In this document: in pieces, positions 5,411-23,988 of the stretch
Layout of the letters: each line of letters starts with the position of its first letter
Numbering within the stretch: the first letter of the stretch is position 1
NCBI RefSeq assembly: GCF_001908375.1
Contig: NZ_CP017244.1
Location: 1,488,001 to 1,552,000 of the forward strand
Direction: 5' to 3'
DNA length: 64,000 nt
DNA from: Rhizobium etli 8C-3
GTDB taxonomy: Bacteria; Pseudomonadota; Alphaproteobacteria; Rhizobiales; Rhizobiaceae
Notes under the pieces: generated by a model
Seen by the model: the letters and a program-made list of their open reading frames with translations, nothing else
Databases searched by the model: none
Told to the model about the DNA's origin: nothing
Made by a program: the position numbers and the translations under genes

Positions 5411-5437
5411 GGGCCGCGGTGGCTCTGAAGCGGGGCG

Positions 5438-6007
5438 ATGATGTCGCGCGCGCAAGACAGAATTGGGACATGGATCGGCTGGGCATTCTTCGCCGATCTG
5501 GCGAGAGCCTTGGCTGTGACTTTCGGCTACATGTTCGCCAGATCCGTCACCATGCAATATCCGGACAAGGAAAAATGGTTGCCTTACCCGCGCTACCGCG
5601 GGCATCACTTCTTGAAGCGCGACGAACTGGGCGAGATCAAATGCGTGGCCTGCGAACTCTGCGCCCGAATTTGTCCCTGTGACTGCATCGAAGTCATCCC
5701 CTACGAGGACGAGAAGGGCAACCGGCACCCGGCAAAATTCGAGATCGACACGGCCCGCTGCCTATTTTGCGGGCTATGCGAGGACGCCTGTCCGGCAGAC
5801 GCGATCGCGCTTGGCCAACAATACGAGTTTTCGAGCTTTTCCTCGCGCGACTTGGTGATCGGGCGCGACGATCTGCTCGACAAACCGGGCAAGGCGGCAA
5901 CCGGTGGCGGCGTAGTTGCCGCGCGCCTGAACACGGAGAAGGATGTGCTCGTCGAAACCAAAGAGACGCAGGGCTACAACTGGTGGCGGAATATACGGCG
6001 AACGTGA
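5438..6007 (+). CDS. nuoI: NADH-quinone oxidoreductase subunit I (two [4Fe-4S] ferredoxin subunit)
   Basis: 189 residues. It carries clusters N6a and N6b in the peripheral arm, with motifs C69-x2-C72-x2-C75-x3-C79P and C108-x2-C111-x2-C114-x3-C118P. Two additional cysteines, C81 and C83, follow the first motif (ICPCDCIE), where many homologues have non-cysteine residues. It starts 27 bases after nuoH, with ATGs at 5438 and 5441. The C-terminal 50 residues (DDLLDKPGKAATGGGV to the end) form an extension beyond the ferredoxin fold. Confidence 0.96.
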   Translation: MMSRAQDRIGTWIGWAFFADLARALAVTFGYMFARSVTMQYPDKEKWLPYPRYRGHHFLKRDELGEIKCVACELCARICPCDCIEVIPYEDEKGNRHPAKFEIDTARCLFCGLCEDACPADAIALGQQYEFSSFSSRDLVIGRDDLLDKPGKAATGGGVVAARLNTEKDVLVETKETQGYNWWRNIRRT

Positions 6008-6051
6008 AGACGCGCCAGCTGTCAAACAATGCGCTCGCAAAGGAGGCTCAG

Positions 6052-6492
6052 ATGTTTGTCGGCGAAATCATGAAGAACAAGGGTGTCGGTGTCATCGCGG
6101 TCGATCGCGATCAGACGATGGTGGAAGTCCTGAGGCTGTTTCGCGAAAACAATATAGGCTTCGTCGTCGTCGGCCAGTCAGACGGCGAATACCTTGGTAG
6201 CTTGTCGGAACGGGACTGCTGCAATGCCATTGCCGAATACGGGGCCGCGGCGGCGATGATGCGAGCCGCCGACATCATGAACCGCAATGTAGCAACCTGT
6301 TCCACCCGGGATTTGCTGCCGGTCGCGATGGGTATCATGACACGGCGGCGTACGCGTCATGTCCTGGTCATGGATGGGGACAATGTCGTCGGCGTGGTCA
6401 GCATCGGCGATGTGGTCAAACACAGGCTCGACGAAGCGCAGCGCACGGAGCAGGATCTGCAGGATTACATCTGCGGAACCAGATATCACTGA
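6052..6492 (+). CDS. CBS-domain-pair protein linked to nuoHI
   Basis: 146 residues made almost entirely of two CBS motifs (about 5-65 and 75-135), for example NNIGFVVVGQ, YLGSLSERD, RTRHVLVMDGDNVVGVVSIGDVVKHRL. Such Bateman modules usually bind adenine nucleotides such as AMP, ATP or NAD(H). The ATG at 6052 follows AGGAGG with good spacing, 45 bases after nuoI. Its last 7 bases overlap the 3' end of the convergent nuoG. Placement in the nuoHI unit suggests it tunes this complex I or responds to energy state, but no direct evidence exists in the sequence. Confidence 0.9.
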   Translation: MFVGEIMKNKGVGVIAVDRDQTMVEVLRLFRENNIGFVVVGQSDGEYLGSLSERDCCNAIAEYGAAAAMMRAADIMNRNVATCSTRDLLPVAMGIMTRRRTRHVLVMDGDNVVGVVSIGDVVKHRLDEAQRTEQDLQDYICGTRYH

Positions 6493-9122
6493 CCAAGGTG
6501 CGATTGAGGGTCGTCGGGCAAGTCACCGCCCATGCCTTGGTGTCGATCCTCAGGGCTCGACGTAGAACCGGTGAGAGGGGCGACGGACGTTTTGAGTTTG
6601 TAGACCTCGACCGGACATGGATATACACCTCGACGCATCAGTCTGTTGAGGCGTAGGGCCCTATAGTTTTCAGGGATGAATACGAGGCCCTTGGGAAAGC
6701 GCCGGTTGACCTTGAGCTTCGCCGTCAATTCTCCCAGAGCCGATCGCACGACCACCTGATCGCCATGCGAAAAACCAAGTTGGGCGGCATCCTGCGCGCT
6801 CATCTCGACATAGGGGTCGTCAGCGACGGTATTCAGGATCTCCGAGCGTTCGGAAAGATATCCGTTGTGGAACAGGCAGTTGCCGGTAATCAGCATGAGT
6901 CCGCCGGCTGTTTGAGCAACCAACGGCGGCGCGAAAAACGCACCAGACGGTTGGAACGGGACCGCCTTGGTGAACGCGCCGTCAGCGCCAAGCCCATCCT
7001 GCGTCAATCCCTGATAGGCCGGAACCTGCCGGGCGATCTCGTCGAATATTCCGCCTTCCGTCGAAGGCTGCAGCATCTTGCTGCGCAGCGCTGCGACGAA
7101 GTCGAAAATCGCCAGATTGCCTCTTGCCTCGAAGGCGGGTTCGCGAAATTTGCGGATCTTCTGGATCCGACCCTCGTTGTTGGTGAAGGTCCCCGATTCC
7201 TCGCCGTAGCCTGCCGCGGGCAGAACTACCTCGGCCAGTCCTGCCGTATCGGTTAGGAAGGTATCCTGCACGATCAGGAGATCGGCGGCGCCAAGCGCCC
7301 GCATGACGAAATCCCTGTCGGGGTAGGCGATCAGGGGGTCTGCTCCGGCAAGGTAGAGCGCGCCCATCCCGCCACCGAGGCAGAGCTCCAGAATGGCGTC
7401 GAGTCCCGCGCCGGATTGAGGGGCGATTTCGGTCCGCCAGTTCCGTGCAAGGGTTGTACGGGCCGTATCATGGCTGAGCGTCCACGATCCCGGCAAATCA
7501 GCAGGCAAAACTCCCATGTCCCAGGCGCCCAGCTGGTTGGCACGGTCAAAGAGGAACTGCATTGCCGGGCCCTTGCCGAGCAGGCGCAGAACCTGCAGTA
7601 GGTTGTTGAGCTGCTGCAGCGTCTGGCGCGCTGCGGATGCTCTCAAGAGCTCGACGCTGACAAGCACAGAGACGCTTCGGCTTTCCTTGAGCGCGCTGGC
7701 CAGACGACTGGGTCCGTCGCGACCGGTATCGACCGGCGGCCTGCCGACCGTCGCTTCGATGTCCGCCAAAGCCTCGCCCGGCAAGGCGTGACCTGCCGCC
7801 GCCACGAGCCCGGCAACAACCGCCGCAAGAGCGGCCGTTTCTCCGCCCGGCGGCACGCGAACCACAGCGCAGGCATCGGCCTCCAGACGGGAGGGCCGCG
7901 CCGAAAGCATGAGCAATGCGGTCTGCCGCCGTCGGGCGCCGTCCCGCAGCAGGTATTCGGTGACCGGGTTCTCCTCGGTCACGTTGCCGCCGACGACAAA
8001 CACGCAGTCGTTGGCGATCACCTCGTCCAGTGGTGCGCGGCTGTAGAAGGCTGCCAGTAATGGCCCGAGCGTATCGAAGGGTACGGACCAGCGCGACGAG
8101 CAATCAATGTTGTTGGTCCGGAATACCGTCCGCATCAGCTTCTGGAACTGATAGAGCACCTCGTTGGGCAGGCGCGGCGAGGCCAGCCCCGCTGCGGCCT
8201 TGTCCTCGACAGCCGAAAGCCGCCGGCCCAGATAGTCCGCCGCTTCGTCCCAGGAAACCGGAGCCAGAGCGCCATTGCGACGGATCATCGGCCGCTCGAT
8301 CCGGTCCCTGCCCGAGACGAAATCGAGACCGAAGCGTCCCCGCACGCAAAGCGTTTCGTGGTTGACCCCTTCGTCCCATTTCGAGCGCACCCGCATAAAC
8401 TCTCCCTTGCGTGTGCCCACCGTCAGTTGGCAACCGGTGCCGCAATGCGGGCAGACCGTGTCGGTCTCTACCAGATCCCAGGGCCGCGCCTTGTAACGGT
8501 AGGGAAAGCTCATCAGAGCGCCGACCGGGCAGACCTCGATGCAATTGCCGCACTGATCGCAACTCGCAAGGCTACCCTCGAACCCGGTGACGGCCGTATC
8601 CATGCCTTTTTCGACTGTGCCAAGTGCGACCGCGCCGACCACCTCCTCACACATCCGCACGCAACGCTGGCACTGGATGCAGCGATTGACGTTCATGATG
8701 ACGACCGGGCTGAGACGGAGATCTTCGGAGTGGAATACGCGCTTGGGGTCGTGGAACTCGCTTTTGCGGGGCCCGTATGCCATCACCATGTCCTGAAGCT
8801 CGCATTCGCCGCCCTTGTCGCAGATCGGGCAGTCGAGTGGGTGGTTCGCAAGCAGCATGTCGAGCATCGAAGACCGTGTTTCGTCGATCATCGGCGTATT
8901 CGTCCGCACGACCATGCCTTCGGTGACGGTGGTGGCGCAAGACGGCTGCAGCCGCCGCAACCCGTCAATCTCCACCAGGCACATGCGGCAGGAGGCCAGC
9001 GGCGGCAGCCGCTTCCAGTAACAGAAGGTCGGAATCGCGATTCCCAAACGCTCGGCCGCCATGAGCACCGTGGAGCCAGCCTCGACCTCGAGCGCTTGTC
9101 CGTCGATTGTAACGCTAACCAT
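6486..9122 (-). CDS. nuoG: NADH-quinone oxidoreductase subunit G, large type with N7 motif
   Basis: 878-residue peripheral-arm subunit. The N-terminal [2Fe-2S] ligands are C34, C45, C48 and C62. The His-ligated cluster uses H94, C98, C101 and C107. Two ferredoxin motifs follow at C148-C158 and C188-C198. A further set C224, C227, C231 and C259 matches the N7 cluster found in E. coli and Thermus but lost in mitochondrial-type NuoG. Then comes a molybdopterin-oxidoreductase-like domain and a C-terminal MopB-CT-like region (GDQVVVRSALGELTAKL). It is the last gene of the minus-strand operon, 32 bases after nuoF. Size and N7 place it apart from the shorter alphaproteobacterial/mitochondrial type. 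Confidence 0.96.
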   Translation of the reverse strand: MVSVTIDGQALEVEAGSTVLMAAERLGIAIPTFCYWKRLPPLASCRMCLVEIDGLRRLQPSCATTVTEGMVVRTNTPMIDETRSSMLDMLLANHPLDCPICDKGGECELQDMVMAYGPRKSEFHDPKRVFHSEDLRLSPVVIMNVNRCIQCQRCVRMCEEVVGAVALGTVEKGMDTAVTGFEGSLASCDQCGNCIEVCPVGALMSFPYRYKARPWDLVETDTVCPHCGTGCQLTVGTRKGEFMRVRSKWDEGVNHETLCVRGRFGLDFVSGRDRIERPMIRRNGALAPVSWDEAADYLGRRLSAVEDKAAAGLASPRLPNEVLYQFQKLMRTVFRTNNIDCSSRWSVPFDTLGPLLAAFYSRAPLDEVIANDCVFVVGGNVTEENPVTEYLLRDGARRRQTALLMLSARPSRLEADACAVVRVPPGGETAALAAVVAGLVAAAGHALPGEALADIEATVGRPPVDTGRDGPSRLASALKESRSVSVLVSVELLRASAARQTLQQLNNLLQVLRLLGKGPAMQFLFDRANQLGAWDMGVLPADLPGSWTLSHDTARTTLARNWRTEIAPQSGAGLDAILELCLGGGMGALYLAGADPLIAYPDRDFVMRALGAADLLIVQDTFLTDTAGLAEVVLPAAGYGEESGTFTNNEGRIQKIRKFREPAFEARGNLAIFDFVAALRSKMLQPSTEGGIFDEIARQVPAYQGLTQDGLGADGAFTKAVPFQPSGAFFAPPLVAQTAGGLMLITGNCLFHNGYLSERSEILNTVADDPYVEMSAQDAAQLGFSHGDQVVVRSALGELTAKLKVNRRFPKGLVFIPENYRALRLNRLMRRGVYPCPVEVYKLKTSVAPLTGSTSSPEDRHQGMGGDLPDDPQSHLGQ

Positions 9123-9154
9123 GCTTCCTCCAAGCCCGCCTTAAAGACACGCTC

Positions 9155-10420
9155 TCAGTGAAACGGGCACCTCCGCTCCTCGATATGGGCGACGAACTCG
9201 TCACGGAAATGCTTAAGCGCCGCCCGCAATCCCATCGCGGCACCGTCACCCAAGGCACAAAACGTATTGCCGAAAATGCCCTTGCAAAGCATCTCCAGCT
9301 GCTCCAGATCGCCAGGTTCGCCTTCCCCGGTCTCAATGCGACGCAATACTTTTACGGCCCAGTTCAACCCTTCCCGGCACGGCGTACACTTGCCGCAGGA
9401 CTCGTGATGGAAGAACTCGACGATCCTGGTGGAGACCTTGACCATGCAGGTCGAGTCGTCGATTACGACAACGCCGGCCGAGCCAAGCATCGAGCCGGCG
9501 GCAGCAAGCGAGTCGAAATCCATCCCGACCTCCAGCCCGTCCTCAGGTATGACCGGGGCCGAAACCCCGCCCGGAATTACAGCCTTGATCCTGCGTCCCG
9601 GTAACGGACCGCCAGCATGCTCCTCGACCAGTTCGCGCAACGCTATGCCCATCGGCAACTCGTAAAGGCCGGGTTTGCGCACCTGCCCGCTCAGGCAGTA
9701 GAGCTTCGGGCCGGGGCTCCGATCCGGACCGATCCCCCGAAACCAGGCGGGCCCGCGCATTACAATATGCGGCACGCAAGCAAGCGTCTCGACGTTGTTG
9801 ATGACGGTGGGGCTGGAGTAGAGCCCGGCCACGGCGGGAAACGGCGGTTTCAATCGCGGCTGGGCCCGTTTGCCCTCGAGCGACTCGAGCATCGCGGTCT
9901 CCTCGCCGCAGATATAGGCGCCGGCGCCGCAGTGAACGTGCACGGTGAACTTGAAATCAGAGCCTAGGACGTTGGCTCCGATATAGGACTTTTCGCGAGC
10001 CTGAGCGATCGCTTGCTCCAGGCGGCGTATCGCCGTCACATATTCTCCCCGGATGTAGACATAGGCGGTGTCGGCACCGATTGCGTAGGCGCTTAGCGCC
10101 AGGCCCTCGATGAGCTGGTGAGGATCGCGCTCCATGATAATCCGGTCCTTGAAGGTTCCGGGTTCGCCCTCATCAGCGTTGCAGCACAGATATTTCGGCT
10201 TTCCGGCCTGCTTCGGCACGAAGCTCCATTTCAGGCCCGTCGGGAACCCGGCCCCGCCGCGGCCGCGCAGGTTGGACTGTTTGACAAGTTCGATGACATC
10301 GTCCGGCGAATACTCGCGAAGCGCCTTGGCAAGCGCCTGATAGCCGCCGCCGGCCTCATATGTCGACAGCAAATGACTGTCTGGGACGTCGATATTCTTG
10401 AGAAGAACCGGTTCGAACAT
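9155..10420 (-). CDS. nuoF: NADH-quinone oxidoreductase subunit F (FMN, NADH site, cluster N3)
   Basis: 421 residues. The glycine-rich FMN/NADH loop is at residues 52-62 (RGRGGAGFPTG), with NADEGEPGTFKDR after it. The N3 [4Fe-4S] ligands are C342, C345 and C348 (ESCGKCTPC) plus C388 (NTFCALGD). It takes hydride from NADH and passes electrons into the Fe-S chain. The ATG at 10420 is 4 bases after the nuoE stop. Confidence 0.97.
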   Translation of the reverse strand: MFEPVLLKNIDVPDSHLLSTYEAGGGYQALAKALREYSPDDVIELVKQSNLRGRGGAGFPTGLKWSFVPKQAGKPKYLCCNADEGEPGTFKDRIIMERDPHQLIEGLALSAYAIGADTAYVYIRGEYVTAIRRLEQAIAQAREKSYIGANVLGSDFKFTVHVHCGAGAYICGEETAMLESLEGKRAQPRLKPPFPAVAGLYSSPTVINNVETLACVPHIVMRGPAWFRGIGPDRSPGPKLYCLSGQVRKPGLYELPMGIALRELVEEHAGGPLPGRRIKAVIPGGVSAPVIPEDGLEVGMDFDSLAAAGSMLGSAGVVVIDDSTCMVKVSTRIVEFFHHESCGKCTPCREGLNWAVKVLRRIETGEGEPGDLEQLEMLCKGIFGNTFCALGDGAAMGLRAALKHFRDEFVAHIEERRCPFH

Positions 10421-10424
10421 GGCG

Positions 10425-10937
10425 CTACTTCCCAGGCGATCGCACAGCGGCGGGCTCAACAGTTTCGACCTGCCTCGCCATGGCGCGGAGGCTTTCCAGG
10501 AGCGCGTCTATGCGCACGACATCGAGGTTGCCGTGGTAGTCGTTTCCAACCTGCATCACCGGCGCCATCTCGCACGCACCGAGGCACTCGACGGTCGAAA
10601 GCGTAAACAGCCCATCCGGTGTCGTGCCCCCCTTCTTGATTTCCAAAACCTCTTCCAAATGCCTCAAGAGGTCCTCGGCGCGGCACAGCATGCAGGAAAC
10701 GTTGTCGCACAGTTGCAGGTGAAACAGGCCAACCGGCTCGGTATGGAAGAGTGTGTAGAAGGTCGCAAGTTCGTAGACCCACATCCGCTCGACACCAAGG
10801 ATATCGGCGACTTCTTCCAGCACTGGACCAGGCAAATGGCCATGCTCCCTCTGCGCGATCACAAGCGCGGGCATGATCGCTGAGCGCTGGTCGGGATACC
10901 GCGCCGCTGCCGCCTCGATTTGTTCGCGCATGGTCAT
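10425..10937 (-). CDS. nuoE: NADH-quinone oxidoreductase subunit E ([2Fe-2S] N1a)
   Basis: 170-residue thioredoxin-like [2Fe-2S] subunit. The N-terminal helical part (PALVIAQREHGHLP, ATFYTLFHTEPVG) is followed by ligands C77, C82, C118 and C122, the usual C-x4-C...C-x3-C set for N1a. It pairs with NuoF and NuoG in the NADH dehydrogenase module. It begins 18 bases after nuoD. Confidence 0.97.
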   Translation of the reverse strand: MTMREQIEAAAARYPDQRSAIMPALVIAQREHGHLPGPVLEEVADILGVERMWVYELATFYTLFHTEPVGLFHLQLCDNVSCMLCRAEDLLRHLEEVLEIKKGGTTPDGLFTLSTVECLGACEMAPVMQVGNDYHGNLDVVRIDALLESLRAMARQVETVEPAAVRSPGK

Positions 10938-10955
10938 TGCGTCTGCACCTTCCTG

Positions 10956-12170
10956 CTACTTGTCCACCTCGGCCATCACCGGGTCGAGACTGCCGAGCAC
11001 GGCGATCATGTCCGCCAGATAGCGGGCGTTGGTCACTCCAAAGAGCGCCTGAAGGTTGACGAAGGACGGTGCCCGCACCTTCATGCGGAACGGTTTGGGC
11101 GATCCGTCGCTGATGATGTAGAAGCCTAGCTCGCCCTTTGGCGCCTCGATCGCCGAATAGACTTCGCCCTTCGGCACCTTGAAGCCGTAGGCCGACAGGT
11201 CGAAATGCTGGATCAATGCCTCCATCGAGCAGTGCACCCTTTCCTTGTCCACCGGGTAGGCGATTGTCGGCATGTCGATCTGGAACGGTCCCTCGGGCAT
11301 CTGGTCGAGACATTGGTCAATGATCCGGATGCTCTCGCGCATTTCAGCGACGCGGCATTGCCAGCGCGCATAGCAGTCGCCCTCCTTGCGGGTAACGACA
11401 TTGAAGTCGAGCCGATCGTAGATCTCGTACGGCTCGTCGCGGCGAATATCCCAATCGACACCCGAGGCGCGCAGGTTCGGGCCACTCAGGCCGAGATCGA
11501 TGGCATCCTCGGCGGCGATTATGCCGATCCCTTGCGTGCGGTTCAAAAACACCCGGTTGGTCTCGAGCAGTCGCTCATAGTCGCGAATGCGGTTCGGGAA
11601 GATGTCACAGAATTCCCGGATCTTGGGGAGGAACCCGTCTGGCAGATCCTCGCGCACACCGCCAACCCGGCAGAAGGAGGTATGCATCCGCGCCCCGGTG
11701 ATCATCTCCAGCAGATCCATGATCATTTCGCGCTCGCGCATCGCGTAAAGCAAGGCCGTCATGGCGCCGAGGTCCATCGGCAGTGCGCCGGTGATCAGGA
11801 GATGGCCGGAAATCCGCGCCAGCTCAGCCATCAACACGCGAATATACTGCGCCCGTACCGGGGCTTCTATGCCGAGGAGTTTCTCCACGGCCAGCGCAAA
11901 GGCCAGGTTATTCGACGGTGGGCAGAGATAGTCGAGCCGGTCCGTCAACGGGAATATCTGGGTATAGGTGAAGCTCTCCGCCAGTTTTTCGGTGCCGCGG
12001 TGGAGATAGCCAATATGCGGATCCACGCGCTCGACGTATTCGCCGTTCAATTCGAGGACGAGCCGAAGAACCCCATGGGTGCTGGGGTGTTGCGGGCCGA
12101 GGTTGAGAAGCACTTCCCTGGTGTTGAGCGCTTCGCCTTCTGGCCTGCTGAGTTCGGTGACTTCGGTCAT
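10956..12170 (-). CDS. nuoD: NADH-quinone oxidoreductase subunit D (49-kDa type, quinone site)
   Basis: 404 residues, homologous to the large subunit of NiFe hydrogenases without the metal site. Signatures include NLGPQHPSTHGVLRL near residue 25, HIGYLHRGTEKLAE, and PKGELGFYIISDGSPKPFRMKVR near the C-terminus. It forms the quinone-binding pocket with NuoB and NuoH. The ATG at 12170 lies one base after the nuoC stop. NuoC and NuoD are separate proteins, unlike the NuoCD fusion of enterobacteria. Confidence 0.97.
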   Translation of the reverse strand: MTEVTELSRPEGEALNTREVLLNLGPQHPSTHGVLRLVLELNGEYVERVDPHIGYLHRGTEKLAESFTYTQIFPLTDRLDYLCPPSNNLAFALAVEKLLGIEAPVRAQYIRVLMAELARISGHLLITGALPMDLGAMTALLYAMREREMIMDLLEMITGARMHTSFCRVGGVREDLPDGFLPKIREFCDIFPNRIRDYERLLETNRVFLNRTQGIGIIAAEDAIDLGLSGPNLRASGVDWDIRRDEPYEIYDRLDFNVVTRKEGDCYARWQCRVAEMRESIRIIDQCLDQMPEGPFQIDMPTIAYPVDKERVHCSMEALIQHFDLSAYGFKVPKGEVYSAIEAPKGELGFYIISDGSPKPFRMKVRAPSFVNLQALFGVTNARYLADMIAVLGSLDPVMAEVDK

Positions 12171-12171
12171 C

Positions 12172-12735
12172 TCAACGCTCCGGCGCGGAACGGCCCCCTT
12201 GCGGAATTTCCCTGGTGGCAAGGTCTGGCGGTGTCGGCGGCGGACCTTCGGCTCCAAACGGATTCAACTTATCCTTGTATCCACGCAGCGGAAAGTCCTT
12301 ACGCTGCGGGAAGCCTTCGAATCCCTCCCACATGTAGATCCGGCGCAGGTCAGGATGGCCGTCAAACCTGATCCCGTACATGTCCCAAGCTTCGCGTTCA
12401 TGCCAGTTGGCCGTACGCCAGACGCCCGTAACCGAGGAAAGCTTCGGCGGATCGCCAAGCCAGCACTTGATGCGAATCCGCCACCGGTTGGGTAGCGAGT
12501 AGAGGTGGTACACCGCCTCGAACCGCGGCGTTTCGGGATAGTGATCAACCCCGCAGATGTCGGACAGGAAGTTGAATTGCAGCGCTGGATCCTCCTTGAG
12601 GAACCGGCAGAACTCGACGATTGTCTCGGGAGGAACAGCAAAGACGTGAATGCCGTGCGCAGAGCCTAGGTCCTCGATTGCGTCCCCGAAACGCTCGATG
12701 ATCGGACCACGATTGAAAGGTCGCGCCATGCTCAT
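12172..12735 (-). CDS. nuoC: NADH-quinone oxidoreductase subunit C (30-kDa type)
   Basis: 187-residue peripheral-arm scaffold protein. The diagnostic C-terminal motif is [20 protein letters not shown] followed by [21 protein letters not shown]. Its start overlaps the nuoB stop by four bases (ATGA), indicating translational coupling. The tail after residue 165 is proline-rich and variable. Confidence 0.97.
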
Positions 12736-13235
12736 GACACTGCAGCCCGTTCCAAAGACGTTCCGGCCAGCGCGCGGGACCTCTTGATCTTCTCTTGAAG
12801 CAGGAGGAAGCCGTGCATCAACGCCTCTGGCCGTGGAGGACAGCCGGGCACATGTACGTCGACGGGCACGAAAGTCTCCGATCCCTGCACCACGGCGTAA
12901 GTGTTGTAAACGCCCCCAGAAATGGCGCAGGTGCCCATTGCAATGACCCAGCGCGGTTCCGGCATCTGGTCGTAGAGCCGACGCACCACGGGCGCGAATT
13001 TCCGGGTCACGGTGCCGGCGATGATCATCACATCGGACTGACGTGGTGAAGGGCGGAACACCACGCCGAACCGGTCGAGATCATAGCGCGCGCAACCCGC
13101 TGAGATCATCTCGATGGCACAGCAGGCAATACCGAAGGTCTCAGGCCAAAGGGCCGATTTCCGGCTCCAATTGATGACGCTTTCGGTCGTGGTGAACAGC
13201 ACGCTATCGCGGATCGCGTTGTTTACTCCTCCCAT
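12732..13235 (-). CDS. nuoB: NADH-quinone oxidoreductase subunit B ([4Fe-4S] N2)
   Basis: 167 residues. The N2 cluster ligands are the tandem C38-C39 (GIACCAIEM), C103 (GTCAISGG) and C132 ([10 protein letters not shown]); N2 donates electrons to quinone. The ATG at 13235 has GGGAG 7 bases upstream and overlaps the end of nuoA by 13 bases. A much longer upstream reading in this frame is only the shadow of nuoA. Confidence 0.95.
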
Positions 13236-13588
13236 TCCAACGCTCCCTTCAGCCAAGCGTAGGCGAAACCCACGATAAGCAGCAACATGAAGACGAACAT
13301 CTCGACATAACCGATGAATCCGATCTCTTTGAGAACGACGGCCCAGGGAAAGAGGAACATTGCCTCGACATCGAAGACCACCAGCAATATCGCAAGAATA
13401 AAGAACGGCACTCTGAAGCGGCCCCCGGCGGCCTCGCCCGACGGGTCCATGCCGCATTCGTAGGGCATGTTCTTTGCGGGATAGGGATTGGAGGGGCGCA
13501 GCAGCGAGGAAACGAAAAGCGTCGTCATCGCCACCAGAACAATTCCGGCGGCCATGAAAAGAACCGGCAGGAATTCCATTCCAGACAT
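13223..13588 (-). CDS. nuoA: NADH-quinone oxidoreductase subunit A
   Basis: 121-residue, three-helix membrane subunit. The loop [17 protein letters not shown] carries the conserved Cys seen in NuoA/ND3, and the second helix contains [21 protein letters not shown]. It follows nuoN in this permuted operon after 150 non-coding bases, the longest gap in the minus-strand unit. A secondary promoter for the nuoA-G half may lie there. Confidence 0.97.
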
Positions 13589-13738
13589 GTCGCATTTTCC
13601 CGGTCACCGGGGGCCTTGCTCAGGCCGCGACCGGCGCCATTCGGGCCGGCAATGCGGTCGCCCCAGTAAGTGACTTGGGCGCTCCTTTCTTTGATCGTCA
13701 GTGTATTCCCTCGGGGGAATCATTGCAATTCCAATAGA

Positions 13739-15178
13739 TCAGCCTCCAAACACTGCACCTTGAGCAAGCCTCAGGAAGCGTTCCGGAAATAGGCCGATCC
13801 CGAGAGTCCCTAAGGCTGTGAAGGCGAGCGTCGCTCGAACCAGGGGCGTCAGAGCCGGGTCAAACGCCCTTTGTGGCTCGCGCATGTAGATGACCATGAC
13901 GATGCGGATGTAGAAGTAGGCCGCGACGGCGCTGAGCAGCACTGCGATCACCGCCAGCATGACGAAGCCCCGCTCGATCAAGGCGACCAGCACGTAGAAC
14001 TTGGCGAAGAACCCGGCTGTTGGCGGGATGCCGGCCAGCGAGAACAGATAAAGCAGCATCAGAAGCGCCAGCCCGGGATGCGACCTGGCAAAGCCTGCGT
14101 AGTCTTCGATAATCTCGCCCGAGAAATCGCCGTTCCGCATCATGATGACGATGCCGAAAATGCCAAGGTTCATCATGGAATAGATCAGGAGGTAGAGCAT
14201 CACGCTGGCGGTCCCGTCCGCACTGCCGGCCACCACGCCAAAAATGGCGAAGCCGGCATGGGCGATGCTGGAATAGGCCAGGAGGCGCTTGAAATTGTCC
14301 TGCACCAGCGCCACGAAGCTGCCGAGTGCCATCGTCACCACCGCAATGACTGCGACAACGAGCCAGGCGTCCGAGGCTGCAACCAGCGGGTTGAGGAACA
14401 CCCGCAAGATCACCGCGAACCCCGCAGCCTTCGGCCCCACAGACATGAACGCCGTGATCGTCGTGGGCGCGCCCTCGTAGACGTCCGGCACCCACATATG
14501 GAATGGCACCGCGCCGACCTTGAAAACCAACCCAGCGACGATGAAGACCACCGCCAGCAGTAATCCGGGATCGAGCGGATCGCCCGTCACCGCAGCCGCC
14601 ATGCCGTCCAGTTGCGTCGTGCCGGTGAGCCCGTAAATCAGCGAGACGCCATAGAGGAAGATCGCGGTTGAGACCGCGCCAAGGATCACATATTTCAGCG
14701 CCGCTTCGTTCGAACGCGGCTCTCGCCGCAAGAAGCCGGTCAGCACATAGGTGCAGAGCACCATCAGCTCGAGCCCCACATAAAGCGACAGGAGATCGGT
14801 CGCCGAGGCCATGATCATCATTCCCGAAAGGGCAAAGAGCAGCAGGACATAGTATTCGCTACTTTCAATGCCCTCAATGTCGGCATATTTTCGCGACAGG
14901 AAGAATGTCAAAACAGTCGCTATGTAGAAAACGAACTTGAAAAAGACCGAAAAGCCGTCGGCGACGAACATGCCCGTGTAGGCAGGCCGAACCTCGCTCG
15001 CCAGCATGAGTGTCCCCAAGGCTGCCATCAGCACGACGGCGACGGAAGCCCAGACAAAGACATGTCCCTGCCCCTTGCCCACAAGCTGGCCAAGGATCAG
15101 CAGGATGCACGCGCCGGTGATCACCACGATCTCGGGAAGGCTCGCTAAAGCCGACTGGAAAAGCGCGGTGGCGGTCAT
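13739..15178 (-). CDS. nuoN: NADH-quinone oxidoreductase subunit N (antiporter-like)
   Basis: 479 residues with about 14 helices. Key pumping residues are in place: E137 (YVGLELMVLCTY), K220 and H227 (VFKVGAVPFHMWVPDVYEGAP). It is the antiporter-like subunit nearest the quinone module in known complexes. The ATG at 15178 overlaps the nuoM stop (ATGA). It lies directly downstream of nuoM, but upstream of nuoA, so the operon starts with the membrane arm. Confidence 0.96.
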   Translation of the reverse strand: MTATALFQSALASLPEIVVITGACILLILGQLVGKGQGHVFVWASVAVVLMAALGTLMLASEVRPAYTGMFVADGFSVFFKFVFYIATVLTFFLSRKYADIEGIESSEYYVLLLFALSGMMIMASATDLLSLYVGLELMVLCTYVLTGFLRREPRSNEAALKYVILGAVSTAIFLYGVSLIYGLTGTTQLDGMAAAVTGDPLDPGLLLAVVFIVAGLVFKVGAVPFHMWVPDVYEGAPTTITAFMSVGPKAAGFAVILRVFLNPLVAASDAWLVVAVIAVVTMALGSFVALVQDNFKRLLAYSSIAHAGFAIFGVVAGSADGTASVMLYLLIYSMMNLGIFGIVIMMRNGDFSGEIIEDYAGFARSHPGLALLMLLYLFSLAGIPPTAGFFAKFYVLVALIERGFVMLAVIAVLLSAVAAYFYIRIVMVIYMREPQRAFDPALTPLVRATLAFTALGTLGIGLFPERFLRLAQGAVFGG

Positions 15179-16650
15179 TGGCCGCTCCCCTTGGTGAGGA
15201 CTTGCGCCAGCAGATGCTTCACCGAGACGTCGATGATGTTGAGAAAGGGTTTCGGATAGAGCCCGACCCAAAGCACGAAGACGGCCAGCGGCAGGATCGC
15301 AGCCATCTCGCGAGCGTTCACGTCGCGTATCTTGAAGCGAGCGCCGATGCTGGCCGGACCAAGTGCTACCCTCCTAAACATGCCAAGAAGATACGCCGCT
15401 GACAGCAAGGCGCCCACGACCGCGGCCGCGCCGGCGGCCAGGTTGGCGGCAAATCCGCCCGACAGCACCAGCAATTCGCCGACGAACGAATTCGTTCCCG
15501 GCAGGGCCATCGACGACAAGGTAAACAGCGCCAGAAACGCGGTATAGACCGGCGCCACCTTCATCAGCCCGCCATAATCTGGGATATTGCGCGTATGCGT
15601 CCGCTCGTAGATCAGGCCGACGAGGAGGAACAAAGCGCCCGTCGTTATGCCATGATTGAACATTTGCAGGATGCCGCCCTCGAGCCCGCGGAGGTTCAGC
15701 GCAAACACCCCCAGCGTCACGAAACCCATATGGCTGATGCTGGAATAGGCCACCAGCTTCTTCAGATCGTCCTGTGCCAGCGCGAGCAATCCGCCATAGA
15801 CGATGGCAAGTGCCGAAAGCGCCAGCATCAGCGTCGAATAGTATACCGACGCCTCCGGCAGCATCGGCAGCGAGAACCGCAAGAAACCATAGGCACCCAT
15901 CTTCAGGAGCACTCCGGCCAGGATGATGCTGCCGGCGGTCGGCGCCTGTACATGGGCGTCCGGCAGCCAGGTATGAACCGGGACCATCGGCACCTTCACG
16001 GCAAAGGCGATCAGGAAGGCGAAGAAAAGCCAGGATTGGACCCAGAACGGCAAATCCTGACCTGTGAGCGCGAGAATGTCGAAGGTCCTGCCGCCGTGGA
16101 AATAGAGCACGATGACCCCGATCAGGAACAGGAGGCTGCCCGCCAGCGTGTAGAGAAAGAACTTGAAGGCGGCATAGACCCGGCCATCACCGCCCCACAC
16201 TCCGATGATCAGATACATCGGGATCAGCATCGCCTCCCAGCAGACGTAAAACAAAAACAGATCGAGGGCGCAGAATACTCCGAGCATCAGTGCCTGCATG
16301 ACGAGCAGGCTTACCATGAACTCCTTCACCTTGCTGTTTATCGCGACCCATGAGGCGAGCACGCAAATCCACCCCAGCAGTGCGGTCATGAACACGAAGA
16401 GCGCACTGATCCCATCGATACCGAGCGCATAGGTGATCCCGAGCGTGGGCACCCACGCGTGTATCTCGGTGAACTGCATCTGGTGGGTCGTCTGGTCGAA
16501 GCCGGCCAGCATTGCAATGCAGAGAGCCAGGTCGAGGACGGTGATAGCCAGCGCTGTCCAGCGCACCGCATCTTCGCTGCGGAAAAGCAATAGAACCACT
16601 GCCCCGGCAGCGGGCGTGAATACAATGAGGCTGAGGAGCGGCAATCCCAT
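15175..16650 (-). CDS. nuoM: NADH-quinone oxidoreductase subunit M (antiporter-like)
   Basis: 491 residues, about 14 helices. Conserved charged residues are E139 (YVCWEAMLIPMY), K219 (AVKVPMVPVHTWLPDAH), H226 and K250. This is an ordinary NuoM that couples quinone reduction to proton translocation. It begins 9 bases after nuoL and its stop overlaps nuoN. Confidence 0.97.
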   Translation of the reverse strand: MGLPLLSLIVFTPAAGAVVLLLFRSEDAVRWTALAITVLDLALCIAMLAGFDQTTHQMQFTEIHAWVPTLGITYALGIDGISALFVFMTALLGWICVLASWVAINSKVKEFMVSLLVMQALMLGVFCALDLFLFYVCWEAMLIPMYLIIGVWGGDGRVYAAFKFFLYTLAGSLLFLIGVIVLYFHGGRTFDILALTGQDLPFWVQSWLFFAFLIAFAVKVPMVPVHTWLPDAHVQAPTAGSIILAGVLLKMGAYGFLRFSLPMLPEASVYYSTLMLALSALAIVYGGLLALAQDDLKKLVAYSSISHMGFVTLGVFALNLRGLEGGILQMFNHGITTGALFLLVGLIYERTHTRNIPDYGGLMKVAPVYTAFLALFTLSSMALPGTNSFVGELLVLSGGFAANLAAGAAAVVGALLSAAYLLGMFRRVALGPASIGARFKIRDVNAREMAAILPLAVFVLWVGLYPKPFLNIIDVSVKHLLAQVLTKGSGQ

Positions 16651-16659
16651 CGCAACCCC

Positions 16660-18420
16660 TTACCGCCATGCCACGGCGAAAACGACGGCGGCGGCAATCA
16701 GGCCGGCAATCATCGCCAGCACATAATGGGTCACGACACCAGTCTGGACCCGCCGCAACGCCGCGCCCCCGCGCAGGACCGAACGAGCGACGCCGTTGAC
16801 GACGGCGTCCACACCGTTAAGGTCGATCTTTAATCCTTCTCGTGCCGACCCGTGCAGGAAAGGCAGCGCCGCGGTCTCAGACACCTCGCTCACCGCCTTC
16901 TCGTAGCGCGCCAGCGGCCTTTCGGCGAACCACATGAAGTACCGCGCGCCCTTGCGGTAGAACCAGTCGGTGTCGAGGCTGACGGTATTCTCGGGATCGA
17001 GCGCTCGCAGGAAAATGACAAAGCCCAGTGCCGTGAACATCAGCACGCCGAGGCTCTCGGTAATATGGAGACCCGTATATGGTTCGAAGTCGACCGGATA
17101 GGGTAGCAATGCATAAAGCGGCCGCGGGAACACCCCGATCGCAATGCAAAGCACCGCCGCCATACCCATCGCAAGGAGCATGTTGCCGGGCGGATCCCGG
17201 GCCTGCAGCCCTTGGTCCTTGCCGAAGAACATGTAGTACGGAAGCTTGAGCCCGGTGTGCAGGAACGTCCCGGACGATGCCATCGTCAGCGCGAGCACGA
17301 CCAGCGCGCGATGATCCTGCCCGGCGGCGGCCACCACCATCGACTTGGTGACGAAACCCGAGAAGAAGGGAAATGCCGAGATCGCCAGGGCGCCGACCAT
17401 GTAGAGCGTCAAGGTCAGCGGCATGGTCTTGTAGAGTCCGCCAAGTTCGGTGAGCTTGCGCCGACCAGTGACATGAATCACAGCCCCCGCACCCATGAAC
17501 AGGAGCCCCTTGTAGAGGATATGGGCGAAGGCATGGCTGGTGGCTCCGTTCACCGCCATCTCGGTCCCAATGCCGACGCCTGCCACCATGTATCCCACCT
17601 GGCTGACAATGTGATAGGCAAGCAGCCGCCGGCAGTCGTTCTCCAGCACCGCGTAGATTACGCCGTAGAGCGCCATTGCGGTGCCGAGCCAGACCAAGAG
17701 CTCGGTCCCGGGAAACGCACGCGCCAACACGTAGACGGCGGTCTTCGTGGTAAAAGCGCTCATGAACACCGCGCCTGTGACGGTCGCCTCCGGATAGGCG
17801 TCGGTGAGCCAGGCGTTAAGCGGCGGCACTGCGGCGTTGAGGATGAAACCGGCGAGAATCAAGATGACGGCCACGCCCATTTCCCCCTCGATCGGGCCGA
17901 ACAGCGATGAACCTGTTGCCAGCCCGTGGAGAACAATGCCGCCGAGCAAGCAGACCCCTCCGGTGATATGGACCATGAGATACCGGAAGCCTGCCCGGAT
18001 CGCCTTGTCGCCTCCCTGGGCAAAAACCAGATAGGCAGAGGAAAATGCCATGCCTTCCCAGAACAGATAGAGGGTCAGGTAGTCACCGGCAAATACCACG
18101 CCGAGTGCGCTGCCGACGTAGATGAACGCGGCCACATGCTGGCCGGTGCGTGTCAGGTGCAACGCGTAGACGGTGCCGATCAGCGCCATGACCGTGAAAA
18201 CGGTGGCGAAGACGATACTCAGCCTGTCGACCCTTGCAATCAGGATTTCCTGCCCGATGAACCTCGCCTCGCCATAAGTGCCCGGCTGCATCGTGAGCAC
18301 GGCAAGGATCGCCAGCGTCGGGATCAGCAGCAGATAGGCCTTGCCGATCGATCCTCTGAGGAACGGGATCGGCAGAGCACCGAGAATGAAGAGCAGAGCC
18401 GGGTGGATGAACTCAGTCAT
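16660..18420 (-). CDS. nuoL: NuoL-like antiporter subunit with long C-terminal lateral-helix region
   Basis: 586 residues. The antiporter core occupies about 1-440, with E122 (YLFWEGMAFSSAY) kept in helix 5. The helix-7 motif reads FILNAAVPPLNAWLTDAYPEA, so Asn195 and Asn202 stand where NuoM has Lys219 and His226. K226 (TTKTAVYV) is kept. The C-terminal part from DWFYRKGARY (about 485) to the end is an amphipathic stretch followed by a final hydrophobic helix, matching the lateral helix HL plus last helix of NuoL. At about 102 residues it is, by my recollection, roughly 30 longer than the E. coli equivalent. It resembles proteins annotated as Na+/H+ antiporter subunit D, but context makes it the NuoL of this complex. 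Confidence 0.88.
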   Translation of the reverse strand: MTEFIHPALLFILGALPIPFLRGSIGKAYLLLIPTLAILAVLTMQPGTYGEARFIGQEILIARVDRLSIVFATVFTVMALIGTVYALHLTRTGQHVAAFIYVGSALGVVFAGDYLTLYLFWEGMAFSSAYLVFAQGGDKAIRAGFRYLMVHITGGVCLLGGIVLHGLATGSSLFGPIEGEMGVAVILILAGFILNAAVPPLNAWLTDAYPEATVTGAVFMSAFTTKTAVYVLARAFPGTELLVWLGTAMALYGVIYAVLENDCRRLLAYHIVSQVGYMVAGVGIGTEMAVNGATSHAFAHILYKGLLFMGAGAVIHVTGRRKLTELGGLYKTMPLTLTLYMVGALAISAFPFFSGFVTKSMVVAAAGQDHRALVVLALTMASSGTFLHTGLKLPYYMFFGKDQGLQARDPPGNMLLAMGMAAVLCIAIGVFPRPLYALLPYPVDFEPYTGLHITESLGVLMFTALGFVIFLRALDPENTVSLDTDWFYRKGARYFMWFAERPLARYEKAVSEVSETAALPFLHGSAREGLKIDLNGVDAVVNGVARSVLRGGAALRRVQTGVVTHYVLAMIAGLIAAAVVFAVAWR

Positions 18421-18667
18421 AATAGTCCTCGCGCCGCATCAGCCCGATCCGATGGCCGAGAAACTTTGAAACGAAGATGAGCAGAACACAGGAGCCGAAA
18501 CCGTAGACGGCGGACCAGCCAGGCAGGCGCTCCCAAAGATATTCGGCGTGTTCGCGAATAACCAGAAAGTCGGCGGCGACGATCAGAACGAGTGCCAGAT
18601 AGAACAGCCGGCGGCGCTGCCTTGCCCATTTCTCGTCACCAAAGAAGTCGACCACGCGCTTGATCAT
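18413..18667 (-). CDS. Small two-helix membrane protein inside the nuo operon
   Basis: 84 residues starting MIKRVVDFFGDEKWARQRRR, a basic, amphipathic N-terminus. Two hydrophobic segments follow, at about 21-37 (LFYLALVLIVAADFLVI) and 54-71 (VYGFGSCVLLIFVSKFLG), and a charged tail ends RREDYYD. Its ATG overlaps the stop of the upstream antiporter gene by four bases, and its end overlaps the nuoL start by eight, so it is translationally coupled on both sides. I do not recognise a family. The coupling and position strongly suggest an accessory subunit or assembly factor of this complex I, perhaps at the junction between the extra antiporter subunit and NuoL. Confidence 0.85.
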   Translation of the reverse strand: MIKRVVDFFGDEKWARQRRRLFYLALVLIVAADFLVIREHAEYLWERLPGWSAVYGFGSCVLLIFVSKFLGHRIGLMRREDYYD

Positions 18668-20127
18668 CTGACCACTCCGTCCGCCAGGGTAAGGAAATAA
18701 TCGGGGAAGATGCCCATCAGCACCGATAAAATGGCGGTTACGACGAGCGGAATCGTAATCATCGGAATTTCGCGGACCGTCGCCCGGCTCTCCTGCGGCT
18801 CGGTCCCGAAAAAGGCGACATAGCTGACCGGCAGGAAATAGGCGGCATTCAGGATCGAACTCACCAGGAGCACGACCAGGAACGAGATCTGTCCGGCATC
18901 GACCGACCCCAGCGTCAGATACCATTTGCTGACGAATCCCGCGGTGGGCGGCACACCGATCATGCTGAGGGAGGCGACGAAGAATGCGCCCATCGTCCAG
19001 GGCAGCCGGCGGCCGATGCCGGCCATGTCGCTGATGTTGCGCTTCCCCGATGCGCAGTAGATCGACCCGGCGCAAAAAAACAACGTGATCTTGGAAAATG
19101 CATGCGCCGCAATATGGATGATCCCGCCGACCATTGCGACCGGCGACAACAGGACCGCGCCCAGCACGATGTAGGAAAGTTGGGAAACGGTCGAATAGGC
19201 AAGCCTGGCTTTCAGGTCGTCCCGTGTCAGGGCGTAGACCGACGCCATCAGGATCGTGAATGAAACCAGGTAGGCCGTGGCGATCCCAAGGCCCAGTCCT
19301 CCAACCAGCCCGACGCCGAAGACATGAAACACCACCCGCAGCACGCAGAACACCCCCATCTTGACGACAGCCACTGCATGCAAGAGTGCGCTGACAGGTG
19401 TTGGCGCCACCATAGCGGCCGGAAGCCAGGCGTGCATGGGCATCACCGCAGCCTTGGCGAAGCCGAATAGATAGCAGAAATAGACGACCGTCAGCAGCGG
19501 CGCCGAGGCATTGACGCCCTGCAATAGCCCCCCCGCCACAAAGTCCAGCGATCCTGCGATGGAATAGGTCAGTGCCAGCGCGGCAAGCAGCGCGCTTTTC
19601 GACGCGCCCATCAAATAGACGAGGTATTTGCGGCTGCCCGCCCATCCCTCTTCATCCTCGTGGTGGTAGACGAGCGGATAGGTAACGAGGCTGAGCACTT
19701 CGTAGAAGATCACCAAGGTGAACAGGTTGGCGGCAAATGCACCTCCGATGGCCGCCGCGAGGCTGGTGGCGAAACAGGCAAAGAATCGGGTCTGCGCATG
19801 CTCGTTCAAGTGCCGCATGTAGCCGAGGGAGTAGACGGCGGCGACGATCCATAGAAGGGAAGAGACGCTGGCAAACACCATTCCGAGCGCATCCGCCCGG
19901 AAAGCGAAGTCGGCCCCCGGCAGGATCTCGAACAGGCGCAAATCGACGGTTCCGCCCGCCAACACCGTGGGCGCCATAGAGGCGACAATCGCAAACAGGA
20001 CGATCGCGGCCAACGGCGAGACGAGATCGCGAAATTTCTCACGGTTATTCAGAAGAAGAACTGCCACAGCGGTCAGGCCCGGGACGGCGATGGCAAGCAG
20101 CGGCCTGATCGATATCACCGGGTCCAA
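18664..20127 (-). CDS. Extra (fourth) antiporter-like subunit of complex I, MrpD/NuoM type
   Basis: 487 residues, about 14 helices, with no lateral-helix extension. All key pump residues are visible: E143 (FYEVLSLVTYPL), K225 and H232 (GFAKAAVMPMHAWLPAAM), and K256 (HAVAVVKMGVF). Standard complex I has three such subunits (L, M, N), all of which are separately present here. It starts with TTG just 4 bases after the nuoK stop, preceded by AAAGGATAAGGG. It could be called a second NuoM or an MrpD-like protein. Its place between nuoK and nuoL and its tight spacing argue that it is a structural part of this complex rather than of a separate Mrp antiporter. Confidence 0.88.
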   Translation of the reverse strand: MDPVISIRPLLAIAVPGLTAVAVLLLNNREKFRDLVSPLAAIVLFAIVASMAPTVLAGGTVDLRLFEILPGADFAFRADALGMVFASVSSLLWIVAAVYSLGYMRHLNEHAQTRFFACFATSLAAAIGGAFAANLFTLVIFYEVLSLVTYPLVYHHEDEEGWAGSRKYLVYLMGASKSALLAALALTYSIAGSLDFVAGGLLQGVNASAPLLTVVYFCYLFGFAKAAVMPMHAWLPAAMVAPTPVSALLHAVAVVKMGVFCVLRVVFHVFGVGLVGGLGLGIATAYLVSFTILMASVYALTRDDLKARLAYSTVSQLSYIVLGAVLLSPVAMVGGIIHIAAHAFSKITLFFCAGSIYCASGKRNISDMAGIGRRLPWTMGAFFVASLSMIGVPPTAGFVSKWYLTLGSVDAGQISFLVVLLVSSILNAAYFLPVSYVAFFGTEPQESRATVREIPMITIPLVVTAILSVLMGIFPDYFLTLADGVVR

Positions 20128-20131
20128 GCCC

Positions 20132-20434
20132 TTATCCTTTCATCATGGTCACGTCGTCGACCTTGAGGGTGGATTTGTTCCTTACAAGAGCAACCACGAT
20201 GCCAAGAGCAACGGCGACCTCCGCCGCAGTGATTGCGATGACGAAGATGGCGAAGATCTGCCCGCGGAAGTCGTCGTAGATGCGCCCGAAAGCGACGAAA
20301 TTGATGTTGACCGAGTTTAGCAGCAACTCCAGCGACATCAGCACGACCAGGATATTGCGCCTGAGCAGCACGCCAGCTGCTCCGATCACGAACAGGATCA
20401 CCCCAAGCAGGATATACCACGATAGCGGAACCAT
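20132..20434 (-). CDS. nuoK: NADH-quinone oxidoreductase subunit K
   Basis: 100 residues, three helices, with the conserved Glu residues of the proton path in [19 protein letters not shown] and in [15 protein letters not shown]. The ATG at 20434 shares one base with the nuoJ stop (TGATG). It is the short subunit between NuoJ and the antiporter modules. Confidence 0.97.
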
Positions 20435-20928
20435 CACCCCTGCTCCTTGCGCGCCAGTACGATGGCGCCGATCAGGGCCACCAACAGGATGACGGAGGCG
20501 GCCTCAAACGGCAGAAGATAACCGGCGAACAGCGTCGTGCTGAGCTGCCTGATCTCATCACCGCCGCCTGCAGGAACCGTGACGGAAAATCGATCGCTCC
20601 AAAGCACCAATACCGACATCTCGATCCCCAGCAGAACCAGCATCACCAGAGCCGGCAGGTTGCCGCCTGGCAGGAACCGCTGCGACATTGCTTCACGCAC
20701 ATCGATCATCATGATCACGAACAGGAACAGGACCATGATTGCGCCGACATATACGAAGATCTGGATGACCGCGAGCAGTGGCGCTTCGAGCAGGACGAAG
20801 ATTGCCGAAATCTGCAGGAAACATGCCATCAGCGCCAATGCGCAGTGAACCGGATTCCGCGCCAGGACCACGGTCAGGGCCGTGATCACGGACACCGCAG
20901 CGAACAGAAGAAAGAACCCCTGACCCAT
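20434..20928 (-). CDS. nuoJ: NADH-quinone oxidoreductase subunit J
   Basis: 164 residues, five helices; the conserved stretch is [24 protein letters not shown]. The ATG at 20928 has GGGAGGG 8 bases upstream. A 22-codon upstream extension lacks a ribosome site. It is the first gene of the minus-strand operon, which then runs without long gaps through K, the extra subunit, the 84-aa protein, L, M, N, A, B, C, D, E, F and G. Confidence 0.96.
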
Positions 20929-21905
20929 CGACGCGACCCTCCCACGCGAGCTGTCACTCGGCGCGAGACGGCCGGATTTGAGATAGCTCCGCACTTCAGG
21001 TGCATTTATAAATTGTGCCCTAGTATCGGATTTTTCACAAGATTATTGTCGTCGGCAGACAAGCCACTGCGGTTGTGATGTGGCCGGCCGCGCGCCAAGG
21101 CAATCCAGAGGCTTGCGTTGCCCGCCGGAAAGCTCGTCCACCAGTCTTACGGCAAGGAGGTTTTGGTTGCGACGGGCGCGCCGCCACGGCTTCGTCCCTG
21201 GTCTGCTTCCGGCCAGCGTCAACCAATCTGCTTGGCCGGGGCCAGCCTTTATATTCACTCTCGATTTGCTGCCTTCACGAACATCGCCAGTTCGCGCCCA
21301 AAGCGTCGGCCCCGTCGTAAAAAGGGCGAAGCGGCGCTCTCGGCAAAGATCCACAAGCGGCCGTCCATCGCTCTTATTATTGCGACATGTCCGACCGATG
21401 GGCCGATCGTGCTTGCCGTGCGTCAGGACAGTGGGGTGCGAAAAGTCGCGGCACGCAGGCTCCGGATCTGAGGTCTTCACGAAACCTTCGTTCACCGCGA
21501 CGCGGCGTCATGCCGTTGATGACAAGCATCCCTGCAATTTGTCACCCGTTGGAGGTTGATGAAAGCATGAAACGAGGAAATCCGCCGTCGCCACCGTTCG
21601 TTCCGCGGCCAGCGACGAAGCCACCAAGCGACGAGCCCACCAGCACCGGGCAAGGCAGTTTGGGTTCGGCTATGACGGCAGCGATATCGCCAGCCGGGCG
21701 TTGGAAATGGCCCCGAGCGCGGAGAGCTAATGGTCCGAAAATCGTCTTGGATACTTTAACGACCTCGCGGTCAGTTCTGCGGTATAAGTTCAGGATTCAA
21801 ATGAAAACTTCATGAAAATCGAACTAAAACTCTACGGTCTAGCGAAGAGCTTTTTGTATTTCTGAACGATAATGATCTGGATTATTCGCTTGCAGATAAT
21901 ATTTC
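20929..21905. other. Gene-poor stretch between nuoJ and the groESL control region
   Basis: Nearly 1 kb with overlapping open frames on both strands but none with a recognisable protein. The best small candidate is 21567-21815 (+), 82 codons starting MKRGNPPSPP, with GGAGG 11 bases upstream. It is Pro/Arg-rich and I would not call it. The region must hold the nuoJ promoter (minus) and the distal part of the groES promoter region (plus), and it may be decayed DNA. Confidence 0.5.
21897..21902 (+). promoter_or_regulatory. Likely -10 element of the groESL promoter
   Basis: TAATAT sits immediately upstream of the CIRCE element, the usual geometry in which HrcA blocks initiation at groESL. No strong -35 hexamer is seen at the expected spacing. 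Confidence 0.4.
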
Positions 21906-21932
21906 TTGGCACTCCTACCAATCGAGTGCCAG
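21906..21932. promoter_or_regulatory. CIRCE element (HrcA operator)
   Basis: TTGGCACTC, 9 spacer bases, GAGTGCCAG. This closely matches the CIRCE consensus TTAGCACTC-N9-GAGTGCTAA, with compensating changes that keep eight of nine base pairs. It lies 54 bases upstream of the groES ATG. HrcA bound here represses groESL until heat or misfolded protein titrates GroEL. No hrcA gene is in the window, so control would be from elsewhere in the genome. Confidence 0.92.
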
Positions 21933-21986
21933 AGATGTTATGTAATAGATGCGGCCACCCTATGCGCCGACCGCAGAAAGATCTTC

Positions 21987-23988
<2,002 letters not shown>

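Follow-up and report, generated by a model that had tools for sequence, protein, structure and literature searches.

What kind of complex I is encoded by a nuo cluster that holds four antiporter-like membrane subunits? The question is raised by a 64,000-nucleotide stretch of the Rhizobium etli 8C-3 genome (contig NZ_CP017244.1, positions 1,488,001 to 1,552,000; hereafter, the window), whose minus strand reads nuoJ-nuoK-D1-S-D2-nuoM-nuoN-nuoA on to nuoG, with D1 and D2 denoting antiporter-like proteins of 487 and 586 residues and S a small protein of 84 residues. Judged by sequence, two MrpD-family proteins and one small protein stand in the place of NuoL in this cluster. Gene content, protein families, residue counts, and trees make it probable that the cluster encodes the rhizobial green complex I, in which a D1-S-D2 module replaces NuoL, and from these data we infer how the enzyme would assemble, in what order its arm would be built, and how its subunits would switch. 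A long arm with four antiporter-like subunits is well supported.

We scored the proteins against Pfam and NCBIfam profile cut-offs and compared the Escherichia coli K-12 nuo region by tblastn. A preliminary description of the window had assigned four antiporter-like subunits to a single nuo cluster; all four are indeed open minus-strand frames that match Pfam Proton_antipo_M (cut-off 21.5), namely D1 (18664..20127; 171 bits), D2 (16660..18420; 142 bits), nuoM (15175..16650, 491 residues; 266 bits), and nuoN (13739..15178; 258 bits), the last with a 479-residue start inside a 510-residue frame that reaches 15271. More specific models separate them: nuoM passes TIGR01972 (634 bits, cut-off 263.8) and nuoN passes TIGR01770 (507 bits, cut-off 332.6), while D1 passes NF006236 (838 bits, cut-off 663) and D2 passes NF009310 (792 bits, cut-off 564), two families that are both named antiporter subunit D (MrpD). 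The 487-residue protein had been said to lie between nuoK and nuoL at a spacing of 4 bases; it does follow nuoK with 4 bases between them (nuoK ends at 20132, D1 starts at 20127), but the next gene is S (18413..18667, an open minus-strand frame whose hydrophobic stretches suggest a putative membrane protein), followed by D2 and not NuoL. D1 and S overlap by 4 bases, S and D2 by 8, and nuoM and nuoN by 4. A D1 scan of species genomes returned 169 confirmed relatives, and the best 80 of these, which are close kin by choice (86-97% identity) and so say little on distant relatives, all keep the order J-K-D1-S-D2-M-N (80/80), which argues that the arrangement is not due to chance. S was found in all 80 loci and ends in an invariant EDYYD in 16/16 aligned sequences; it has no Pfam or NCBIfam family match at E 0.001, and its fold model was poor (mean predicted local distance difference test score, pLDDT, 57.5) and was not used.

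The reading of the 586-residue protein as nuoL was not borne out. On the NuoL model TIGR01974 (NDH_I_L, cut-off 407.5), D2 scores 136 bits, 271 bits short, and D1 scores 196 bits; no cluster protein among those searched reaches this cut-off. Three residues of the NuoL ion-pair quartet, in TM6 and TM7 (transmembrane helices 6 and 7), are likewise missing from D2, which has Ile152, Gly155, and Asn195 where canonical NuoL has the TM6 Arg and Asp and the TM7 Lys in 29/29 sequences (from 29 of 34 genomes matched). A second NuoM, the trait of 2M complex I, was not found either, as D1 and D2 score 168 and 132 bits on the NuoM model NDH_I_M (cut-off 263.8).

The relatives of the module point to Mrp operons. 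In the non-nuo neighborhoods that we examined, D1 and D2 close Mrp-type operons, with a third antiporter-like gene before D1 in 16/18 loci (the exceptions being L128 and L136), an MrpE-like gene in 16/16 further loci, and an S gene detected by BLAST in 14/18 and 11/16 loci (25/34 together). In one of them, L131, Pfam names MrpE, F, G, B, MbhD/E, and C-type (Oxidored_q2) proteins. Mrp operons that close with D1-D2 are common (L121-L138, L170-L186), and a Nitrospira has been described with an Mrp locus in which mrpD is followed by two NuoM/NuoL-like genes (PMC7784846). In a 56-row tree, the D1 proteins of green and Mrp loci fall on one side of a branch with 100/100 support, and the D2 proteins do likewise (100/100). 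D1 and D2 group with NuoL and MrpA (96/93), away from NuoM and NuoN, in a tree whose root is unsure, and D2 stands beside NuoL/MrpA only at 89/61. The clading of D1 with Mrp-operon proteins is the first half of what the preliminary description had named as speaking against a complex I role; we read it as a sign of origin and not as proof that D1 works alone. In a 61-row D2 tree, green D2 forms one clade (100/100) that lies next to the D2 of Mrp locus L173 (100/100), and the 27 D2 rows with a lysine in transmembrane helix (TM) 7 lie on one side of a 100/100 branch. The TM7 lysine may have been lost before D2 came into use in complex I, which holds only if the root, which is unsure, lies on the lysine side. 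Loci L136 and L183, which have very long branches in the D2 tree and join at 59/73, were left out of the residue comparison; we also dropped L112 (which repeats L136), L104 from the context analysis (it ends near D2), L177 and L182 (cut in D2), and L214 (internal stops), and did not use the D1 frames of L175, L177, L181, and L186 (joined or overlong) or L178 (not picked up).

Two features fit the module to a longer arm, in line with the earlier proposal of a long-arm complex I. The first is the C-terminal lateral-helix stretch of D2: from the lateral-helix start to the last helix, it counts 76 residues (D485 to T560) in 12/12 green rows, compared with 57 in 41/49 Mrp-type D2 rows (46-59 in the rest), 52 in 27/29 and 51 in 2/29 canonical alphaproteobacterial NuoL rows, and 47 in E. 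coli. At the helix rise of 1.5 Å per residue, the surplus of 24 residues over most canonical NuoL would amount to ~36 Å of helix. A structural match of D2 residue 483 to E. coli NuoL 537-538 agrees with the motif-based start within ~2 residues; a joint alignment, which gives 47 for its four D2 rows, mispairs the starts, and the value of 76 comes from a separate D2 count. The five-subunit Manganitrophaceae enzyme has been reported to carry a further insertion of 26 residues, close to the surplus of 24, and the four-subunit 2M enzyme an insertion of similar length, the rhizobial MrpD being described as lacking the Manganitrophaceae insertion (PMC9040806), in keeping with arms that lengthen by one subunit at a time. 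The second feature is Lys177 in TM6 of D1, which is present in 84/84 green rows and in 0/27 Mrp-type rows, where the site holds Ile (24), Met (2), or Val (1). Lys177 aligns with Asp178 of E. coli NuoL, a site near the TM5/TM7 pair that meets the TM12 residue of the neighboring subunit (PMC10212512, PMC11496545). That neighboring residue is Lys in 27/27 third Mrp antiporters and Glu in 81/81 green NuoM (Glu392 in the window), such that a new D1 lysine facing it is what docking onto NuoM would favor.

As the preliminary description had noted, D1 has E143, K225, H232, and K256, which we confirmed by alignment to E. coli NuoL E144, K229, and Q236 and NuoM K265, and which are identical in 80/80 related loci. 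Its set comprises the TM5 Glu, the TM7 Lys, a His and a Lys in TM8, and the TM12 Lys. In 80/80 rows each, D1 and NuoM keep the TM5 Glu, TM7 Lys, TM8 Lys, and TM12 Lys/Glu, NuoN keeps the TM5 Glu, TM7 Lys, and TM12 Lys (its TM8 column being doubtful and not used), and D2 keeps the TM5 Glu, TM8 Lys, and TM12 Lys. At seven key sites, the NuoM of this cluster is as in 28 canonical NuoM rows (27 loci and the source genome's own). In the enzyme that we propose, NuoA-K, M, and N would form the usual complex, and D1-S-D2, related to the ends of three-antiporter Mrp operons, would take the place of NuoL. The membrane arm would most likely run N-M-D1-D2 with D2 at the tip, and the longer lateral helix of D2 would reach back over D1 and M to N. 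D1 would be an added pump with a complete charge axis, while D2 would tie the arm together, end the charge axis, and, having no TM7 lysine, switch differently. For this switch, a TM5 Glu-TM6 His pair in D2 may replace the Glu-Lys pair.

Several observations weigh against this picture. The start point of the NuoL stretch was set by a motif, as neither alignment pairs the D2 and NuoL starts. The D2 fold model has a mean pLDDT of 75.2 that drops below 50 at 214-217 and at 478-571, and since the latter covers the lateral-helix part, the helix length is a residue count only. Lys177 and the longer stretch are confined to one clade and possibly arose in one event each, so that the row counts are not independent. 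The nearest Mrp row differs between the two proteins, with green D1 placed outside ten Mrp-type D1 rows in the 56-row tree, and D1 and D2 may therefore not share one history. The TM7 lysine site of D2 is Asn in 80/80 loci and, with the window (Asn195) and three further rows added, in 84/84 green rows, compared with Lys in 29/29 NuoL. Lastly, the TM6 His151 of D2, present in 84/84 green and 125/125 Asn-type Mrp rows, is an imperfect tracker of this exchange, since the Lys-type rows (Gln 22, Lys 2, His 2; n = 27) also have His in 2/27.

The absence of the TM7 lysine from D2, a site that the preliminary description did not consider, speaks against counting subunits as pumps. One alternative, somewhat short of an even chance, is that there are three canonical pumps and D2 serves as an anchor, cap, or exit channel, with a stoichiometry near 4. 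Beyond the Asn at the TM7 site in 84/84 rows, such a role has a precedent in HycC of E. coli formate hydrogenlyase, which has Leu208 at this site and keeps the TM5 Glu (PMC9474812). The Asn also occurs in 119/119 relatives of the L131 D2 (among the best 120 listed of 8000 candidates scored; P0244, 470 residues, excluded). Against an inert cap, E122, K226, H296, H300, K304, and K359 of D2 are kept in 84/84 green rows, which would be odd.

Alternatively, all four subunits may pump, giving five protons per NADH, a possibility in line with the preliminary suggestion of a higher proton yield and one that we entertain tentatively. The charged residues kept in D1, M, and N, those kept in D2 in 80/80 rows, and the longer lateral-helix stretch all favor it, and a published proposal puts the yield at 5 to 6 protons (PMC9040806). 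Yet D2 lacks both the TM7 Lys and the TM7 His (its site being Asn202) in every green row. Mutant data on the lysine point both ways: within complex I, the NuoL K229A exchange is cited as causing a severe loss of activity, and outside it, when tested in B. subtilis, the exchange made no difference (PMC4938563). The loss of Lys and His is not strictly tied, as the nearest Mrp-type relative, L173, has the TM7 Asn and nevertheless keeps the TM7 His.

The most specific proposal is that, in green complex I, the tip subunit is switched by a Glu-His (TM5-TM6) pair rather than a Glu-Lys (TM5-TM7) pair, in a module fitted to NuoM by one new D1 lysine; taken as a whole, we consider it rather unlikely. 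His151 sits one residue before the position of NuoL Arg175 and one turn before that of Asp178, so that a Glu-His pair might take over from Glu-Lys. The residue after the TM12 Lys, described as lying on the exit path of Nqo12, is Ser in 84/84 green D2 and Asp in 27/29 NuoL.

It is improbable that D1-S-D2 is a separate cation/proton antiporter lodged in the nuo operon, with the complex using a chromosomal NuoL. The relatives in Mrp operons would suit this idea, as would the canonical NuoL elsewhere in the source assembly, where nine Proton_antipo_M matches comprise the four described here, three adjoining ones on contig C1 that are the standard NuoL, M, and N (the NuoL and NuoM models being passed there), and two more on C1 whose sizes suggest MrpA and MrpD. 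However, no MrpB, E, F, or G match was found among the cluster proteins searched with Pfam and NCBIfam (nuoA-F and nuoI lay outside that search), the gene order is the same in 80/80 loci, and the longer stretch and Lys177 are seen in the nuo context only. Finally, the literal picture of the preliminary description, a canonical NuoL plus one extra antiporter-like copy, is very improbable, since D2, although its C-terminal stretch and final hydrophobic helix resemble those of NuoL, falls short of the NDH_I_L cut-off by the margin given above and separates from NuoL in the 56-row tree (NuoL 100/99, D2 100/100).

The proposed green complex I with a D1-S-D2 module bears on a wider dispute, as it is debated whether the tip subunit is the sole exit for protons or whether each antiporter-like subunit releases them, and likewise how quinone reduction is coupled to pumping (PMC10212512, PMC11496545). 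A naturally occurring complex I that has four antiporter-like subunits, the outermost with neither the TM7 lysine nor the exit motif of NuoL, would allow a direct test in laboratory rhizobia. Pumping of five protons would mean that not every pump requires the Glu-Lys pair, and pumping of four that subunit counting overstates the yield. Should the Glu-His switch be true, a terminal subunit with neither that TM7 lysine nor the Lys-Asp exit motif could separate tip-only exit from one-pump-per-subunit models. The cluster may also be relevant to how nitrogen fixation is supplied with energy, a role that has been proposed for green complex I (PMC7415380).

D1 is 97% identical to a Rhizobium mongolense protein, Sinorhizobium meliloti strain 2011 has a D2 match on a plasmid, and among 297 genomes sampled from the source family, D2 occurs at 82-100% identity in 19 and as a distant form at 46-50% in 16. 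The NF009310 cut-off is passed in 21/398 genomes of the phylum sample and 87/385 of the class sample. Outside the order of the source but within its class, three genomes of one family, in assemblies that are small (1.4-2.5 Mb) and 86-95% complete, hold green-type clusters (L168 and L169; D1 73% and D2 74% identity) or a piece of D2 (L182; 76%), and in L169, H-I-J-K-D1-S-D2-M-N lie all on one strand. The source itself looks like a nodulating rhizobium, with three nifH matches and, on contig C3, a nodA match that exceeds the cut-off.

The remaining nuo genes complete the cluster in an order that is rearranged relative to E. coli nuo (J-K-D1-S-D2-M-N-A..G, with H-I on the other strand). On the minus strand, nuoK (20132..20437) passes NF004320 (110 bits, cut-off 57), and nuoJ (20434..20994, with a provisional start codon) matches Pfam Oxidored_q3 (127 bits, cut-off 33.2), its best NuoJ model giving 128 bits, below the cut-off of 154. 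tblastn matches to the E. coli nuo region locate nuoA (13223..13588), nuoC (12172..12735), the frame of nuoD (10956..12257), nuoE (10425..10937), and nuoF (9155..10459), all on the minus strand; the minus-strand frame at 12732..13607, with a start inside the frame, we take from its translation to be nuoB, and a nuoB match lies at the same place in L168. Further on, nuoG (6486..9122, minus strand) has the Pfam domains Molybdop_Fe4S4 (61 bits), Molybdopterin, and Molydop_binding, the first of which is also found in other NuoG. Beyond it, on the plus strand, lie nuoH (4424..5410; NF004741 365 bits, cut-off 305) and nuoI (5438..6007; tblastn match). A frame for a CBS-domain protein (5767-6492; Pfam) adjoins nuoI and is convergent with nuoG, and next to the cluster lies what is presumably a groES-groEL-like pair (21906-23988), named from the translations. 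FixK-type boxes (≤2 mismatches) number 34 in the window versus 22 expected, with 3/100 shuffles as high, and none is well placed before nuoJ or nuoH; sigma-70-type promoters number 4 in 4000-22000 versus 5.6 expected.

Several known systems resemble the cluster to different degrees. HycC is like D2 in keeping the TM5 Glu and losing the TM7 Lys, but it is a single antiporter-like subunit with Leu at the site and another redox module (PMC9474812). Three-antiporter Mrp operons (E-F-G-A'-B-C-D-D1-S-D2) share the D1 and D2 clades and, in 25/34 loci, S; they differ in lacking redox subunits, in having a third antiporter-like gene before D1 in place of NuoM/N, in a D2 stretch of mostly 57 residues instead of 76, and in a D1 without Lys177. 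Nitrospira-type 2M complex I likewise has an antiporter-like subunit beyond the usual three and a lengthened lateral helix, but there the additional subunit is another NuoM, and NuoL is retained (PMC9040806). Complex_I_3 of Manganitrophaceae has two MrpD-like subunits that are described as closest to those of rhizobia, and differs in having five antiporter-like subunits and the further 26-residue insertion in MrpD2 (PMC9040806). An additional 4Fe4S cluster in NuoG is a named feature of green complex I (PMC4967309), to which the Molybdop_Fe4S4 domain noted above may or may not correspond. The TM7 Lys loss, the TM6 His, D1 Lys177, and S are unmentioned in the excerpts of green complex I descriptions consulted, which do not include the original 2016 description. 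Green complex I is already described as a second complex I of rhizobia in which two MrpD-like subunits replace NuoL (PMC9040806, PMC7415380), such that the earlier statement that four-subunit cassettes had been reported before holds for this very type; it occurs in about 70 Alphaproteobacteria, mostly Rhizobiaceae, and is reported to have raised expression in symbiosis (PMC7415380). Both it and the present cluster are a second rhizobial complex I with two MrpD-like subunits for NuoL and a standard complex I elsewhere in the genome (here on contig C1), both have a rearranged gene order (the published order itself lying outside the comparison), and we found no difference between them. We conclude that the cluster is a member of the already described green complex I type.

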